Assembly (NCBI GenBank): GCA_029242545.1
Contig: JAQWTV010000066.1
Coordinates: forward strand, 1 to 64,000
Direction: 5' to 3'
DNA length: 64,000 bases
Source of the DNA: Roseibacillus sp.
Lineage (GTDB): Bacteria; Verrucomicrobiota; Verrucomicrobiia; Verrucomicrobiales; Akkermansiaceae
Position numbers and translations under genes: made by a program
Notes under the pieces: model-generated
What the model saw: the letters and a program-made list of their open reading frames with translations, nothing else
Database searches by the model: none
Told to the model about the DNA's origin: nothing
Shown here: positions 37,816 through 50,799 of the stretch, piece by piece
Layout: every line of letters begins with the position of its first letter
Numbering within the stretch: position 1 is the first letter of the stretch

Positions 37816-38101
37816 GAACAGCTCAAATCGAACTAAGATTTCATGTTCGGAGGCCTACAGGACTCTTATTCTCCATGTAAGGTTGGGTTGTGTCTGGGGG
37901 GCGGTCGTGGACGCGGTTTGAGGTCTCTCAGGTCGAAACGTTCGATTCTGATCAGGGAGATAACCCACGAGGGGGAGTAGGGGAGTGGTAATGGCATGTT
38001 CAGGCGCGATGTAATGGTGGCTATTGGTTGTGCAGCTCCCATTATTTTGGTGTATCCTTTTTGAACAGGAGGAGTCGTGCTCCCCCCTCCCTAGTGCCCC
38101 G

Positions 38102-41100
38102 ATGGAAACCCCCAGCCCCCGACGAGTCTTATTCCGCTTTCCCGCGATGTGGGTCAGCGGGATTCAGTCTCTCCTATTTTCCGTCGCTGCAGTCGCCGTT
38201 CCGGTCGCGGTAGATGATCGCTACCAGGTCACGGAAGATCTCGTTCTGAATACTCAATCTGGACCTCTTATTGCAACGGACCTAGATAGTAGTAACGGCA
38301 CGATTAATCCGTCTTTTGATGGAGAGTGGGACTATCTCGACCAGCTGGAGAACCAGCTTGGCGCAGGGATGAGTTACCCCGTGGATGGATTGGGAAGAGA
38401 TTGGACGAGTGTCGATTTTGAGGTGGGTTCATCCACTGTTGGTCCATGGGTCTCGGGAGCGCTCCCCCTGCAGGGAGGAGTGGTGCAGGCCTTTCCAGCC
38501 GCAACTCCGAATCTTCTGCTTGGTATCGGCGGCGGACTAAACGGTCAGAATTTGGTAACTACCTACCTTTTTAGGAATACTTTCACCCTGAGCGCGGAGG
38601 AGGTCAGTGAAGAAAAGTGGATTGCCAATCTTGCGGTTGACGATGGTTGTGTGATTTTTATCAATGGAATCGAGGCGGGCTCGCTTTTTATGCCGGATGG
38701 GGCGATCGATTCGGATACTCTGGCGTCTAACAGCGATGAATCGTCTTACTTCGCCGTTGAGCTCGATGTCGCCGGCGTTCTGAGGGAAGGGCAGAACACC
38801 ATTGCGGTGGAAGTTCACCAGGCAAATCTCGGAAGCTCCGATGTAGGCCTCGATTTAAGTCTTGAGGGGGGCGGTGGAGCCTCTGGAGGGTTTGTATTCT
38901 CGGATGACGTGTTTGGAACGACTCAGCCGGAATATGCGGCTGGCGCGCTCGATCCTGCTGGAGGGTTTGCGGGTTCGGGGCTTCGGATTACTATCGGGGG
39001 TTTGGACAACCGGTTCGTTCCCGGACCTCATGCCACCTCTGGAGCTTTTACCCAGAGCTTTACGATTGCGGCCTCTGCATCGGTTCAAATTGATTTCAGA
39101 TATAGGCTGGTTAATTCTGACCCCCTGGAAGCCAGTGAGTTCGGCGAGGCGGTTTTGGAGGTTGATGGAATACGCTATGGTAGTGACACGGATGACTCTC
39201 TCGTTCGAATCAGCAATGGTGGGGATTCCGGTTGGAGGTCGGCAAGTTTCATCCTGCCTCTGGAAGCCGGCAGTCATACCATTGCGCTTGGTGCCTACAG
39301 TGGTGGAACTAGTCGGGGAAATGAGGTTATTAATGTTTATTTTGATGATGTCCTTGTGCAGCAGGGGGATGGCGCGATTGGCGGTGTTTTGAGTAACGAC
39401 TCTGTCGGTAGTGAGCCAGTGGTGAGGGTTATCACCCCTCCGGTGAATGGAGATGTTAACATGGCTGAAAGTGGAGTGTTTCTCTATATTCCTGACCCGA
39501 ATTTCTTTGGCATCGACAGGTTTACATACGAAGTCTCCGATGTTGCTGGAGTTTCCGACGAGGCTGAGGTGGTTATTGAAGTCGTGCCGGTGAATGATGC
39601 TCCGGTTGCTCTCCCTGAGAGCTTTGCGCTTGATGAGGATGAGCTGCTTGTTGTCGACACTGGCGCCAATAGCATACTTGCGAATGACGAGGATCTTGAG
39701 GGAGAAGTGTTGTCGGCGATTCTGGACGAGGGGGTAAGGCATGGGACTCTGTCGCTTGATGCAAGTGGTCTCTTTACCTATGCGCCGGAGGAAAACTTTT
39801 TTGGAACAGACTCCTTCAGCTACAGGGTGAGCGACGGGGTGTTTGAGTCTGCGCCTGTTATGGTCACTCTGCTGGTTGGTCCGACTCCTGATCCTCCAGT
39901 TGCCAGAGATGATCTTTTCGAGGTCGGGGAGAATGTTGCTCTCGAAGCGATTGCAGAGGGTGGCGCGCAAAGTGGCGAGCAGGGTGTAGTCCCATACGGA
40001 GCAGAGTGGAAGTATGATGATAGTGGGTCTGATCTCGGCGAGGCATGGCGGGCTCTCGATTTTGATGATTCTCAGTGGGCTAGTGGTCCCGCTGAGCTGG
40101 GTTATGGCGATGATGACGAAAACACCCAGGTTGGGTTTGGGGGAAATCCCAGGAACAGGAACCCAACTACCTATTTCCGGCATACCTTTACGGTAGATGC
40201 GGTGAATTCGATCATCGGATCAAGGTGTCGCGTTTTTCGGGATGATGGGATCGTAGTCTATCTTAACGGGGTAGAGGTTGGTAGGGACAACATCGGGGCA
40301 AACCCTTCTTACGAAGACTTCGCGAGCAGCGCTGAGGACGATGGGAACCTGGAGATTGAGCTATCCCCGGTTTCTCCAGATCTATTCGTGGAGGGAGAAA
40401 ATACCCTTGCGGTGGAGATCCACCAGAGCGATAGGCAAAGCTCGGATATCAGCTTCAACCTCGAGCTTGAGATCACGAGAGCTCAGAGATCCGGCCTCCT
40501 CGCAAATGACCTGGACCCCGATCAAGCAGGGCTCGTCGCGGTCCTCGAAAGTGGGCCTGCCAATGGTGTGGTTAACCTCGATGAAACCGGGGCCTTTACT
40601 TACACGCCTCCACTTAATTTCGAGGGAGAGGATCAATTTACGTATCGGGCTCTCAATCAGGAGGGAGCTTCGATTGGGGTTGTTACTATCAATGTGATCC
40701 CAGGGACAAATGACATTCCCGAAACGGAGCCAGACGTCTATCAGATATCAGAAGATGTGGAGTATTTCCGTAGCTCTGAGGAGGGTGTGCTATCGAACGA
40801 TATAGATCCCGATGGGGATCCAATTCAGGCGGCACTTGTCGAATCGACTGCCCATGGAGAGCTCTTGTTTAACGAAGATGGGTCGTTTTCTTACGCTCCA
40901 CGTCGCGATTATTTCGGCCCGGACTCCTTCGCCTATACGGTCTCTGACGGTATATCCGTATCGCCTGTGGAAGTCGTTATTCTGAACGTAAGTAATGTGC
41001 CAGACGCTCCTGCAGCTATTGAGGACACCTACGCAACAGATCCCGGGGATTCAATCATAGTGGATGAACAGGATGGGGTCCTATCTAACGATTACGATCC

Positions 41101-44100
41101 GGATCAGTCGGCTCTGGAAGCTGTGCTGGTTACTGGGGTTACGAGTGGGGAGCTGGTCCTGAGCCCTAACGGTGCTTTTTTCTATCGTCCGGTAGATGCG
41201 AGTCCGGGTCTGGTTTCGTTCGCTTATCGAGCGAGTGATGGAGCTCTGTCATCACCGGTGACGACGGTGCGCATTTATCTGGATCAGGCGCCTCAAGGTC
41301 TTCCTGATGACTACGTGGTGTCAGAGGACGCTCCTCTCGAGGTTGCCAGTGATCAAGGAGTGTTGGCCAATGATGGTGATGCAGAGGGAGACTCTCTGAC
41401 CGCGGTTCTGCTTTCACCAGCTTCGCATGGGGCCTTGGATCTCCGTTCGGATGGATCCTTTAGCTATACGCCGGAGGAGAATTTCGAGGGGCCGGATTCC
41501 TTCCGCTATGTAGCGGCCGGGGGCGCGCGCTCTTCAGATCCGGTAGTAGTTCGGATCGCTGTGTCGGAGGTGAATGACCCTCCCGTGACAAGAGAGGATT
41601 ACTACCTGGCGATTGCCGACCAGGAGCTGCAGATTGAACCAGAGAGCGGCCTTCTCCGGAATGACACCGATGTGGATAGTCTCTCGCTGAGGGTATCGGT
41701 GACCAGGGCGCCTGCTCATGGGGAGCTGCTCATGAATGAAGATGGCTCATTTTCCTACATGCCTTCCCCGGGCTTTTCTGGAAGTGACAGTTTTACTTAC
41801 AGGGTCAGCGATGGCTCTCTTTATTCCGGACCGGAGACTGTAAGCATTCAGGTTGGAGGCGCTTCCGATGCGATCGTGATCAATGAGATCATGTATCACC
41901 CTGAGAGCGGGGCTACGGGTCAGGAATTTATTGAGTTACTCAACGTTGGTGACGGGCCGGTTAGTGTCGAAGGTTGGGAGTTCACAAGTGGGGTCGAAAT
42001 GGTGCTTCCAGATCTTTCTATTCCGGCCGGGGGACTGCTGGTCGTGGCTGCAGATACACAGGAATTCGTTTCCTTCTACGGAGCGGTTGACCTTCTTGTC
42101 GGTGGTTGGAGTGGCTCCCTGAGTAATCGAGGTGAGAGGATCCGTCTGGTGGATGAGAAAGGAGAGCAGGTTGATGAGGTGTCATATTATGATCAGGGAG
42201 AGTGGGCCGAAAGAAGAAGGGTGACAGATACCGGAGAGTCGGGGTGGGTATGGGAAGCAAGACATGATGGTAGAGGTGAGTCACTCGAACTCGTTTATCC
42301 GGCTCTTACTAATCGGTCAGGGCAGAATTGGAGTGCAAGCGAGGGTGGGGCTACGCCTGGAGCGGCGAACTCTACTGCCTTGGAGGAGGGCGGGGTGGCG
42401 CCTTTAATTCTGGATGTTGGGCACAGCCCCCTTGTTCCTAGCTCGACTGATACGGTGACGATTCGCGCCAGACTGAATGACACCACAGTCCTGGGTCTTT
42501 CGGTGAAGGTGCTCTACAGAGTGTCGACGCTGGATCCTGAGGATTTCACGGAAGTGGTGATGTCAGACGATGGTTTGCATAATGACGGAGCGGCAGGCGA
42601 CGGGGTGTTTGGTGTTGTCCTGCCGGCAATGAATGATCAGGAGATCGTTGAGTTCTATCTGTCAGCGAATGATGGATCGAACGTCAGGACATGGCCTGCC
42701 CCTTCTGACGTAGGACAGGTAGCGAATCTCCATTATCAAGTCGACGATGCTTCCAATCCCCCGGGAGAAGGCATCTACCGCTTGATCATGACAGCCTCGG
42801 AAAACCGGGCTTTCAACCGTATTGATCGGGATTCGAACGCGCAGCATCACTGTACTTTGCTGGCTGATGACTGCAGCGGTCCGGTGGTGCGGTATCAATG
42901 CGGGGTCCGGGTTCGGGGCGCAAGTAGTAGACAGGATACCCCCCCGCCGATGAGATTGAACCTTCCCAGGGACCGTAAGTGGAATGGAGAGAGTCAGTTA
43001 AATCTCAACACCCAGTTTACGTGGCTTCAGTTCATTGGGATGAAGCTTTTTCAGGCGAGTGATCTTCCGGCGCCGGACAGCAAGCGGATTGCACTGCGGA
43101 GGAACGGACAGGATCTCGCCCAGGATACGGAAGAGGATTATGGAAGCTTTGTGCATCTTCAGCCTCTGAATTCTGAGTTCATAGATGATAAGCTGCCGGA
43201 TGATGCGCAGGGTAACCTTTACAAGAAGGTGCGACCAGATGTGAACTGGGCTTATCGCGGCGGTAATCTCGAGCGCTACGCCAGAGACGGATGGGGAAAG
43301 CAGACAAACGAGTCGGAGGACGATTGGGCGGACCTCGATGAGTTCCTCCGTGTCATGAACCAGGCCGACGCCCAGCCCGACTATATTGACCAGGTTGAAG
43401 CTGTTGCGAATCTGGAACAGTGGATGCGTTGGTTTGCGGTTGAGACTCTCATCGCAAACGGAGAGACCAATGCAAGTAACGGCACTGATGACGATTACAG
43501 CATGTATCGAGGTGTTCTTGATCCGAGGTTTCAGTTCATTCCCCACGATCTGGATACAATACTTGGAAGGGGTGACGGCTCCAGAATTACGGATCCGGAG
43601 CATACCTTGTTTGACATGACGCTATCGGGGGAATCTCTGGGCCCGCTGGTTCCGCTTTTTGAAGAACCGACAATCAGGGTTCGCTACTTCGAGGCCCTTC
43701 GGAATCTGATAGGCACTAGTTTCTCCAAGCAAAGATTCGATGCGCTTGTAATCAATCACCTTGCTGGGTGGGTGCCCTCCGGGGTTCTTGATGATGTGAT
43801 TGATTTTATGGATGCCCGCCGTGCGTTTGTGCGGGAAACCGTTGACAGGGAGCTTGGAGGCGCGCCTCCTATGCTTGAGCCTGCAACCCTGATTGCGGAG
43901 GAGTCTCCTCGTGGTGCCCTGTATCTGAGTGAGCTTCTCGTATTAAACGAGTCGTCACATGAGGTTGATGGGAGATTTCCCGATTATATCGAGCTGGCAA
44001 ACTCCGGGGCGAGACGTTCGCTCGCAGGCTATTCTCTTACGGACGATCCATCGGACCCGCAAAAGTTTGTCTTTCCTGTAGGGGTAGAGATCGGTTCAGG

Positions 44101-45910
44101 AGATCGCCTGATGCTGTATGCTGATTCAAGAACTGGTCCGGGGATCCGGCTGGGCTTTTCCCTGAATGGATCGGGTGAGCAGGTCCTGTTTTTTGATCCA
44201 GCTGGGACGCTTCTTGATTCGGTGACCTTCGGAGCCCAGATCCCAGATCTCTCTATCGGTCGGGGTGGAGCCGCGGAAACCAGCTGGGGGCTGAATATGC
44301 CAACACCCTCGACAGTGAATCAGTTGCATTCCCTCGGGAGCCCCTCGGGTCTTCGCATCAATGAATGGCTGAGTAAGCCGGAGTTGGTCTACAGTGAAGA
44401 TTTTGTGGAGCTCTACAATCCAGATCCGCTCCCGGTTTCGTTGGGGGGGCTTCGTATTACTAACGAGCCAATGCGCTCCATGGGTGGAGCGGTGATGCCA
44501 GCCCTGACGTTTATCAAGGGTGGAGGATTTGTAGTGTTTGAAGCGGTAGGCTCAGGAGCGGAGAATCCCTCTGAATTGCCGTTCAAGCTTGAAGCCGGGC
44601 ATGAATGGTTGGCTATTTATGGAGTTAATCAGGTGGAAATTGACCGTGTTCACGCGAGCTGTGATGCGCCCGATCAGTCCAGAGGTCGTGAAACCGATGG
44701 TGCAGCTCTTTACGCTAATTTCGAGCTTCCCACTCCTGGCCTTTCGAACGCCACTGATCTGGCAGGTGAGAGCCTAGTTCTTCAGTTCCTGAGGATCACC
44801 GAAATCATGTATCATCCGGCTGAGTTCCCTGACTCAGAATACATTGAGTTGCGTAACGTCGGGGATCTGGAAATCAGCCTTGCTGGGGTTGAATTGACAA
44901 GAGGGGTTCGCTTCAGCTTTCCGGATGTTGTTCTCGGTCCTGGTGACTATGCCGTGGTTGTGTCCGATATAAACGAATTTGAGGCGGCGCACGGCGTGGG
45001 TATTAATGTGCTGGGAGAGTGGTCTGGAAGGCTCGATAACGATGAGGATCGTTTGAGGCTTGAGATTTCCGAGCTTAATGCAGCAGTGCATGATTTTACT
45101 TACCGAGATTGGTGGTATCCCTCTACCGATGGAGAGGGTTTTTCTCTGATCATCGTCGATGACTCATTGCGCCCGGGGACATGGCAGGAGCAAGCTAGTT
45201 GGGCAGCAGGAGTGGCAGGTGGAGGATCTCCCGGGATCAGCGGCGGCTTCTTTGTCTTCGGAGGTGCCAGTCAAGAGGTAAGCCTTCCGGCCGCAGCTAC
45301 GCTGGATGCAACAGTGAGTTATGGCTCCCTGAGTCCAGATTCGATTACGCTCAGGTGGAGCCAGCAGGAAGGCCCTGCACCGGCGATCTTCGGGAATAGT
45401 GAAAACGAAGATACTATCGTAACTGCAGCTGTCGGCGGACGGTATACGTTTTCGTTGGAAGCCACTGCCTCGGACGGTTCCTCGCAGACCGGGAGTGTGT
45501 CTGTTGTGTTCCGGGATTCCTATGATACATGGGCACAGCGGCGCTTTGGTGACGTTGGGCAGATGGCGGCGCAGAGAGCGGCAGATCCGGATGCGGATGG
45601 ATTTAGCAACCTGTTGGAGTTTGGTCTAGGTCTCGATCCCGTTTTGTCGGATCGGGATTCTCTTGCTGCTCCCTTTGTGGCGCCCACTGGGGAGCTTACG
45701 ATGGTGTATTTCCGTCCCTATCTGTCGGAAGCAACTCGCATTGTTGCAGAGGTGTCGTCAGACCTTCTTTTCTGGCAAGCGGGGCCTGAAGTGGTCTCGG
45801 AATCTGTAATCTGGCAGACGGTCGAGGGGGAGTGGGTTCAGGCCCGGGATCTCTTTCCTTACGATGGTGCAACTTCCCGGTTTATCCGGCTCCGGGTGGA
45901 AGCGGATTAA
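38102..45910 (+). CDS. Giant secreted multidomain protein: 7 cadherin-like (tandem-95 type) repeats, 3 beta-sandwich inserts, 4 LTD domains, CotH kinase-like domain, calcium-motif C-terminal module
   Basis: ORF 38024..45910 (TTG); signal peptide follows ATG 38102. Repeats of ED..(G)VLxND.DP..L.A.L...HGEL..N.DGSFSYxPxxxFxGxDSFxYxVSDG; CotH-like region ~42770-43610; LTDs at ~41875, 43920, 44350, 44780. Confidence 0.88.
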   Translation: METPSPRRVLFRFPAMWVSGIQSLLFSVAAVAVPVAVDDRYQVTEDLVLNTQSGPLIATDLDSSNGTINPSFDGEWDYLDQLENQLGAGMSYPVDGLGRDWTSVDFEVGSSTVGPWVSGALPLQGGVVQAFPAATPNLLLGIGGGLNGQNLVTTYLFRNTFTLSAEEVSEEKWIANLAVDDGCVIFINGIEAGSLFMPDGAIDSDTLASNSDESSYFAVELDVAGVLREGQNTIAVEVHQANLGSSDVGLDLSLEGGGGASGGFVFSDDVFGTTQPEYAAGALDPAGGFAGSGLRITIGGLDNRFVPGPHATSGAFTQSFTIAASASVQIDFRYRLVNSDPLEASEFGEAVLEVDGIRYGSDTDDSLVRISNGGDSGWRSASFILPLEAGSHTIALGAYSGGTSRGNEVINVYFDDVLVQQGDGAIGGVLSNDSVGSEPVVRVITPPVNGDVNMAESGVFLYIPDPNFFGIDRFTYEVSDVAGVSDEAEVVIEVVPVNDAPVALPESFALDEDELLVVDTGANSILANDEDLEGEVLSAILDEGVRHGTLSLDASGLFTYAPEENFFGTDSFSYRVSDGVFESAPVMVTLLVGPTPDPPVARDDLFEVGENVALEAIAEGGAQSGEQGVVPYGAEWKYDDSGSDLGEAWRALDFDDSQWASGPAELGYGDDDENTQVGFGGNPRNRNPTTYFRHTFTVDAVNSIIGSRCRVFRDDGIVVYLNGVEVGRDNIGANPSYEDFASSAEDDGNLEIELSPVSPDLFVEGENTLAVEIHQSDRQSSDISFNLELEITRAQRSGLLANDLDPDQAGLVAVLESGPANGVVNLDETGAFTYTPPLNFEGEDQFTYRALNQEGASIGVVTINVIPGTNDIPETEPDVYQISEDVEYFRSSEEGVLSNDIDPDGDPIQAALVESTAHGELLFNEDGSFSYAPRRDYFGPDSFAYTVSDGISVSPVEVVILNVSNVPDAPAAIEDTYATDPGDSIIVDEQDGVLSNDYDPDQSALEAVLVTGVTSGELVLSPNGAFFYRPVDASPGLVSFAYRASDGALSSPVTTVRIYLDQAPQGLPDDYVVSEDAPLEVASDQGVLANDGDAEGDSLTAVLLSPASHGALDLRSDGSFSYTPEENFEGPDSFRYVAAGGARSSDPVVVRIAVSEVNDPPVTREDYYLAIADQELQIEPESGLLRNDTDVDSLSLRVSVTRAPAHGELLMNEDGSFSYMPSPGFSGSDSFTYRVSDGSLYSGPETVSIQVGGASDAIVINEIMYHPESGATGQEFIELLNVGDGPVSVEGWEFTSGVEMVLPDLSIPAGGLLVVAADTQEFVSFYGAVDLLVGGWSGSLSNRGERIRLVDEKGEQVDEVSYYDQGEWAERRRVTDTGESGWVWEARHDGRGESLELVYPALTNRSGQNWSASEGGATPGAANSTALEEGGVAPLILDVGHSPLVPSSTDTVTIRARLNDTTVLGLSVKVLYRVSTLDPEDFTEVVMSDDGLHNDGAAGDGVFGVVLPAMNDQEIVEFYLSANDGSNVRTWPAPSDVGQVANLHYQVDDASNPPGEGIYRLIMTASENRAFNRIDRDSNAQHHCTLLADDCSGPVVRYQCGVRVRGASSRQDTPPPMRLNLPRDRKWNGESQLNLNTQFTWLQFIGMKLFQASDLPAPDSKRIALRRNGQDLAQDTEEDYGSFVHLQPLNSEFIDDKLPDDAQGNLYKKVRPDVNWAYRGGNLERYARDGWGKQTNESEDDWADLDEFLRVMNQADAQPDYIDQVEAVANLEQWMRWFAVETLIANGETNASNGTDDDYSMYRGVLDPRFQFIPHDLDTILGRGDGSRITDPEHTLFDMTLSGESLGPLVPLFEEPTIRVRYFEALRNLIGTSFSKQRFDALVINHLAGWVPSGVLDDVIDFMDARRAFVRETVDRELGGAPPMLEPATLIAEESPRGALYLSELLVLNESSHEVDGRFPDYIELANSGARRSLAGYSLTDDPSDPQKFVFPVGVEIGSGDRLMLYADSRTGPGIRLGFSLNGSGEQVLFFDPAGTLLDSVTFGAQIPDLSIGRGGAAETSWGLNMPTPSTVNQLHSLGSPSGLRINEWLSKPELVYSEDFVELYNPDPLPVSLGGLRITNEPMRSMGGAVMPALTFIKGGGFVVFEAVGSGAENPSELPFKLEAGHEWLAIYGVNQVEIDRVHASCDAPDQSRGRETDGAALYANFELPTPGLSNATDLAGESLVLQFLRITEIMYHPAEFPDSEYIELRNVGDLEISLAGVELTRGVRFSFPDVVLGPGDYAVVVSDINEFEAAHGVGINVLGEWSGRLDNDEDRLRLEISELNAAVHDFTYRDWWYPSTDGEGFSLIIVDDSLRPGTWQEQASWAAGVAGGGSPGISGGFFVFGGASQEVSLPAAATLDATVSYGSLSPDSITLRWSQQEGPAPAIFGNSENEDTIVTAAVGGRYTFSLEATASDGSSQTGSVSVVFRDSYDTWAQRRFGDVGQMAAQRAADPDADGFSNLLEFGLGLDPVLSDRDSLAAPFVAPTGELTMVYFRPYLSEATRIVAEVSSDLLFWQAGPEVVSESVIWQTVEGEWVQARDLFPYDGATSRFIRLRVEAD

Positions 45911-49443: not shown

Positions 49444-50799
49444 ATGTCCCGAAATCGCAAGAAGTCAGACCGTCCTCCACTCGATTATCGAGGGGCGATT
49501 CTCGGAGTTGGGCTATTAGTGGCCGGGCTGTTCGGGCTCCTGGTTCTGTTCACTCCACTGGGAGGTAAGGTGAAGGCTGGTCTGGCAGAGATCTTTGGCC
49601 AAAGGTCGGCTCCGGTTCAGAGAAATCAGGAAGGCGATGTTTTGATAAAGACTCAACCTGACAGGCCTCTCTCTCCCCTCGAGGTAGATCCCGACCCCCA
49701 GTTTCCGCGTGGGGTTCTCCGACCTCCATCAGGGACGGATATAAGGAGTCTCTCAAAAGGTATTAATCTTAAAGTCGAGTTTGATTCGGAAGAGGGTGAC
49801 CTCGCCTCCTTGGAGCGAAACGATGAGGAATCCTATCTTGCTGAATACGCCCTTAAGGTGCGGATGCCTCGTCCGGCGACTTCTCTTTCTGAGGTAGCTT
49901 TGACAAGCCCTCACCTCATGGATGTCTTTCCGGGACTGAGAGAAATGATTCCCCAAGGGAAACTCTCAGCATGGTATCGGCAATTATACGCGAATAAGAC
50001 TGCGAGAGTCAAAAGTGACATAGGGCGACTGGGAGAGATCCTGAGCAGGCATAACTTTTACGACTGTGAGACGATTTTGAACCTGCGATCGGAGAGGACC
50101 GGACAGCGGCTTTTCCTGATGCAGGCTGAGATGGATGTGGTGTCCGATGGGTCCGATGGCGACAGGCTGCCCCAGATGCCGGATGGTATCGTGAGCTCAA
50201 CGAACTATCAGCCCTTTACCAGTTACCGGTGGAGGAAAACAGGGGCCACTCCTAACCCCATGATCGCTGGCTGGGAGAGTAGAATTGGCAAAGCCAACAA
50301 GGAGCTTGAGGGCTCCTCTGTCGGACAGGATCGTGCGAGCTGGCTAAGGGGCAGGATAAAGATGCTCGAGACGGGTATCGCTGACATGAAGCTCGCGAGT
50401 TTTCTCATCGCTGAATACGACCCGTTCATCGTGATTCCTACAAATATAGTGAAGGACCGACGGGATCCCTACGCTCCCAACATAGGGGATTTTGCGATCG
50501 TCCTTTATGGGCGAACTGCCTACCCGGCTATCGTTGGTGACGCAGGTCCGACCTACAAGGTAGGGGAAGCCTCCTTGCGGATGGCTCGTGAGATCAATTC
50601 TAAGTCGACCCCATACAGTCGCCCGGTATCCGATCTCACAGTTACCTACCTTGTATTCCCTCGAAGTGCAGATGATCCGCGGAGGGCTCCTGATTACCAG
50701 CACTGGCATAAGCGTTGTGAAGAGCTTGTGGATAAGATTGGAGGATTGGGTGATGGCGTGGAATTGCATCAGTGGAAAAATCTACTCGCACCAGAGTGA
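49444..50799 (+). CDS. Membrane-anchored protein with a possible GH75 (chitosanase-like) domain
   Basis: N-terminal TM; QAEMDVVSDGSDGDRLPQMP, NIGDFAIVLYGRTAYPAIVGDAGPTYKVGEASLRMARE, VTYLVFP resemble GH75 motifs (recollection). Confidence 0.45.
   Translation: MSRNRKKSDRPPLDYRGAILGVGLLVAGLFGLLVLFTPLGGKVKAGLAEIFGQRSAPVQRNQEGDVLIKTQPDRPLSPLEVDPDPQFPRGVLRPPSGTDIRSLSKGINLKVEFDSEEGDLASLERNDEESYLAEYALKVRMPRPATSLSEVALTSPHLMDVFPGLREMIPQGKLSAWYRQLYANKTARVKSDIGRLGEILSRHNFYDCETILNLRSERTGQRLFLMQAEMDVVSDGSDGDRLPQMPDGIVSSTNYQPFTSYRWRKTGATPNPMIAGWESRIGKANKELEGSSVGQDRASWLRGRIKMLETGIADMKLASFLIAEYDPFIVIPTNIVKDRRDPYAPNIGDFAIVLYGRTAYPAIVGDAGPTYKVGEASLRMAREINSKSTPYSRPVSDLTVTYLVFPRSADDPRRAPDYQHWHKRCEELVDKIGGLGDGVELHQWKNLLAPE

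Follow-up and report, generated by a model that had tools for sequence, protein, structure and literature searches.

Two of the seven tandem-95 repeats in a giant protein of a Roseibacillus-like marine bacterium are split, each broken in the loop preceding GxLxND, and homologous modules are nested at that one slot. The nested layout is conserved in two phyla, and in relatives the payload is exchanged for others, including a C-type lectin. The split Ig-like domains probably project glycan-binding modules sideways from a rod, in a putative surface protein of a non-RTX kind with CotH and lamin tail (LTD) domains. The gene lies in the window, the whole 64,000-nucleotide stretch analysed, in an open reading frame of 2,628 codons counted from TTG (38024-45910, plus strand). 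The ATG at 38102 is the likely start in preference to this TTG, and a signal-like hydrophobic stretch follows just after it. Residue numbers are counted from the TTG, residue i beginning at nucleotide 38024+3(i-1). The features are as follows, with PSSM scores from the head profile described below.

38102..45910, plus strand: gene of the giant, putatively secreted protein, 2,602 amino acids from ATG 38102; reading frame open from TTG 38024
38201..38272, plus strand: repeat 1 head (PVAVDDRYQVTEDLVLNTQSGP..), residues 60-83; PSSM 24.9
38294..38875, plus strand: module M1, nested in repeat 1, residues ~91-284; homologous to M3, predicted fold like the N-domain of GH2 enzymes
38882..39373, plus strand: module N, nested in repeat 1 after M1, residues 287-450; ~165 amino acids, beta-rich
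39380..39592, plus strand: repeat 1 tail (GGVLSND... to VVPV), beginning at G453
39593..39883, plus strand: repeat 2, uninterrupted
39887..39958, plus strand: repeat 3 head (PDPPVARDDLFEVGENVALEAIAE), residues 622-645; PSSM 20.9
39977..40474, plus strand: module M3, nested in repeat 3, residues 652-817; a single module of ~165 amino acids
40490..40708, plus strand: repeat 3 tail (SGLLANDLD... to IPGT), beginning at S823
40712..41863, plus strand: repeats 4-7, uninterrupted
41864..42190, plus strand: lamin tail domain (LTD), profile match
42905..43750, plus strand: CotH kinase domain (PF08757, 67.7 bits against a cut-off of 23.8)
45263..45505, plus strand: PKD-like domain (PF22352)

From its signal-like N-terminus the protein runs through seven tandem-95 repeats, an LTD, the CotH kinase domain and further LTDs to the PKD domain; the Pfam and NCBIfam scan returned seven tandem-95/Big_9 repeats, four LTD stretches, the CotH kinase and the PKD-like domain. 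The repeats score 354.3 bits against tand_rpt_95 (NF012211, cut-off 90), which places them in that family, and 337.6 bits against Big_9 (PF17963) in seven stretches. The CotH domain matches the solved CotH of PDB 5jd9 with an E-value of 2.8e-5, and its PHDLDT and NGTDDDY motifs are kept across the family, where they read (I/L)PHD(L/F)DT and ETNxSNGxDDDY. In the phmmer alignment the FDG of the solved CotH is replaced by another triplet, which may mean an altered active site. The neighbouring genes are a mixture of housekeeping genes and enzymes, with no evident operon partner and no functional clue among them; a putative GH75 chitosanase (PF07335, 41.4 bits) is encoded downstream at 49444-50796.

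The initial annotation had described repeats 1 and 3 as interrupted just before xGxLxND, and repeats 2 and 4-7 as free of inserts, and both descriptions are borne out. In repeats 1 and 3, an HMM built from the uninterrupted repeats 2 and 4-7 begins to match only at about column 14-26, near GxLxND, and the first ~22 residues absent from those matches (AxDDxYxxxED/ENxxL) sit before the inserts. The HMM column of the head-tail junction (~22/23) is the same in every relative with seven repeats. With a 22-column PSSM derived from 135 uninterrupted repeats, the two heads of the window score 24.9 and 20.9; the mean is -10.5 (sd 5.5) when flanks are shuffled and -12.4 for the flanks of non-nested copies of M, the module family of M1 and M3. 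Scores above 99% of shuffles were obtained for all 22 repeat-1 heads and for 27 of the 28 heads that immediately adjoin M; in the 11 remaining cases another module stands between head and M. The AlphaFold model of nested repeat 3 (pLDDT 84, pTM 0.73), a structure prediction of the kind the initial annotation had proposed, assigns strands on both sides of the M domain, two in the head (positions 9-13 and 19-22) and five in the tail, with pLDDT moderate in the head blocks (57-77). The model of nested repeat 1 is weaker (pLDDT 75, pTM 0.46).

It is very improbable that the head is a separate small domain or linker, that the tail folds alone and that the inserts are beads in line. Such an arrangement would suit a head of just ~22 residues, tails that the HMM recognises alone, and head strands that are among the least confident parts of the AlphaFold model of nested repeat 3; but the fit of the heads to the strand-A motif of the repeat itself is far better than chance, the heads end where the tail match begins, and the model makes their strands beta. 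The split domains of RTX adhesins also share the layout of one strand followed by an insert (PMC10865825). Judged by sequence, head and tail are true halves of one repeat, and strands of the two would pair across the insert. Tandem inserts between unrelated half-repeats, the arrangement opposed to the domain-in-domain pattern of the initial annotation, were looked for by sequence and not found.

The two inserts had been reported to contain matching segments, and M1 and M3 are indeed homologous, with 33% identity across an alignment of 162 columns (E 4e-17; 25 SD above shuffles). The homology extends to an N-terminal W..D..W..DF..W.SG part that was absent from the segments listed. The second beta-rich module reported for insert 1, which overall covers residues ~91-450 (38294-39373), is real and is conserved in relatives; this module N is unlike M, and homology of the two was rejected, their similarity being just 0.8-1.3 SD above shuffles. 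No Pfam or NCBIfam family matched M or N above its cut-off. The insert coordinates first given were correct to ~30 bases; the start placed at 40009 for insert 3 falls within M3.

Whether other Verrucomicrobiota carry the same insertion point had been posed as a check; they do, and so do Planctomycetota. Repeats 1 and 3 are both interrupted in all 18 seven-repeat proteins compared from the two phyla, a set that includes the window's own. A nested repeat-3 orthologue is present in 13 of the 14 genomes of the same genus, and beyond the genus, further families of the order and also Planctomycetota (L065, L072) have the seven-repeat protein with both inserts; Roseibacillus and Akkermansiaceae metagenome-assembled genomes are among the named relatives. 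Among 236 sampled genomes of the class, matches spanning host and M on both sides are rare (G180, G081) and M alone is common. M occurs at 30 places in its own 4-Mb genome (loci L002, L003, L004 and L005, for example), and also in Bacteroidota, Pseudomonadota, Acidobacteriota, Armatimonadota, KSB1 and others, with 112 of 180 copies outside split tandem-95 repeats. With about 30 copies in one genome, an occurrence in many phyla and no Pfam name, M merits a family model of its own. Viral spread of the module was considered and set aside, as M was found on one viral contig only (L141, IMGVR_UViG_3300010883_000616), which may be a bacterial contig inside a viral collection.

The payload of the slot varies between relatives. 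In L043 the position before GxLxND is occupied by N alone; in L053, L054, L065, L066 and L068 it holds a ~190-residue module, designated NFD, together with M; and in L112 an unnamed module (GVQGQDGWYYGYY) together with M. One protein of the Planctomycetota lineage PLA5 (L070, QEVJ01000002.1) carries, nested in two of its tandem-95 repeats, a C-type lectin with M and an L-type-lectin-like module with M. The C-type lectin passes its Pfam threshold (PF00059, 27.6 bits against 22.6) and the L-type-lectin-like module is below that for its family. At a second nesting site M follows the F strand of the tandem-95 repeat and precedes its last strand (L083, L075, L044, L048, L049, L052, L069 and L129). 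In L083 and L075 the canonical last strand (..PxTVTxxV) comes after the M module, and in L075 and others M occupies both sites of one repeat. Since the slot is constant and the lectin class of its payload is not, a port for presentation fits better than a spacer. A more general reading, offered tentatively, is that the A-B loop of tandem-95 repeats might be a payload port throughout Verrucomicrobiota and Planctomycetota, with repeated uptake of unrelated lectin-type modules and usually with M beside the host tail. By the same tentative reading M might be a very abundant, unrecognised family of glycan-binding domains, and its Asp-Asp pair may bind metal and sugar as in PA14 lectins.

The common position of M1 and M3 could have been inherited. 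It is rather unlikely that one ancient nested unit was duplicated along with its host repeat, so that no slot was preferred, even though a clade uniting all M1- and M3-type nested copies is not rejected (p-AU 0.42). In the M tree a single group, separate from the M3 copies, holds the M1 copies of the two phyla (SH-aLRT 93-94, not starred), and copies directly before a tail are scattered among free copies. A clade that joins the M1 and M3 copies found in this genus is rejected by a narrow margin (p-AU 0.044), and host repeats 1 and 3 are not mutual nearest (path 1.63, against 1.48-1.82 from repeat 1 to the others). The slot also accepts unrelated payloads, which argues against duplication as well. 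The marginal rejection, the grouping of M1 copies and the distance between the two host repeats lend weak support to M1 and M3 having entered a favoured slot independently.

The fold class of M is predicted to be like that of the sugar-binding N-domain of GH2 enzymes, a jelly-roll. The best Foldseek matches of the two AlphaFold models are GH2 beta-glucuronidases and beta-galactosidases (E 7e-7 and 3e-10), and the 50 matches listed for the two models are GH2-type glycosidases, with TM-scores on the query that are low (0.22-0.38) because several domains were aligned together. By sequence the likeness to Glyco_hydro_2_N (PF02837) stays below the cut-off of 28 bits, at 19.7 for the whole protein, 17.5 for M3 and 15.5 for M1; M also differs from that domain in being free-standing or nested, without a GH2 catalytic domain. 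A repeated but weak similarity was found to the alpha-L-rhamnosidase StRha78A (PDB 3w5m; E 4e-5 by phmmer and 3e-5 by profile), from which M differs by low identity and partial coverage, with single stretches at E 0.1-2. StRha78A carries a CBM67. M has no Pfam match to PA14 (PF07691) even at E 10, and shares with PA14 lectin domains the shape of the DDG...(N/D)G motif (compared with PDB 36gk_A, residues 129-170). The Asp-Asp at alignment columns 86-87 is invariant in all 180 distinct M copies, and W21, W31, R65, G137 and N139 are conserved at or close to 100% in the same set. Residues 129-305 of PDB 36gk_A, a solved 'RTX protein', comprise a PA14-like DDG..IDG stretch and then an intact repeat; this repeat resembles the host repeat of the giant protein (E 5e-6) and is a useful template.

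The modules may be nested and yet structural, with M and N stiffening, bending or spacing the rod or touching neighbouring domains, and with no external ligand. The N-domain of GH2 enzymes is partly structural, and so the invariant residues of M may be structural too; among the most conserved of them are W, G and R positions of the sort usually seen in fold cores, and M is very widely used in many protein contexts, both within its own genome and across phyla. Such a role is nevertheless doubtful, as the slot is kept while its payload changes between lectin classes. Glycan binding by M is suggested by analogy, from its fold class and from the lectins in the same slot of relatives, and the precedent of RTX adhesins points in the same direction for ligand presentation by the inserts.

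In RTX adhesins a split Ig-like domain is interrupted after its first strand by a ligand-binding domain, beyond which the fold is completed, and the insert, often sugar-binding, is projected away from the adhesin axis (PMC10865825, PMC12077191). The host domains of MpIBP, of FrhA from Vibrio cholerae and of AhLap from Aeromonas hydrophila are discontinuous in this way. The parts are 12 and 106 residues long in one described split domain (PMC10865825) and ~22 and ~72 residues long in repeats 1 and 3 here, which likewise have a short N-terminal part, an insert and the bulk of the fold. In contrast, the giant protein has a signal-like N-terminus with CotH and LTD domains, its hosts are canonical tandem-95/Big_9 repeats, its payload is the GH2-N-like M, sometimes with two modules per slot, and it belongs to Verrucomicrobiota and Planctomycetota. 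No RTX nonapeptide GGxGx(D/N) was found in it. With no RTX motif and with CotH and LTD domains present, it would work like a split-domain adhesin without being filed as one. No account was found in the literature searched of nested domains in Verrucomicrobia or of CotH/LTD in Planctomycetes.

In the proposed mechanism the seven cadherin- or Ig-like repeats would form a rod ahead of the LTD and CotH kinase domains of a secreted or cell-surface protein. In repeats 1 and 3 the first strands (A and A') would be laid down, and the chain would exit at the A-B loop before GxLxND, fold one or two independent beta-sandwich modules (M1 and N, or M3) and then complete the host sandwich. As entry to and exit from a module coincide at a single point, the module would stand out to the side of the rod and keep its far face free. 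As M resembles GH2 sugar-binding domains and is most likely glycan-binding, the two branches, which lie close to the N-terminus, probably anchor the protein on a polysaccharide, a cell surface or a matrix.

Split domains have been proposed as a signpost for ligand-binding domains in the long RTX adhesins of Gram-negative bacteria (PMC12077191). The repeats described here make the signpost readable from sequence alone in another class of giant proteins, those with CotH and LTD domains, in two phyla whose surface biology is little known. A simple rule follows for payload modules, namely a tandem-95 match that begins at GxLxND, and M is a new domain family without a Pfam name whose ligands are directly testable.
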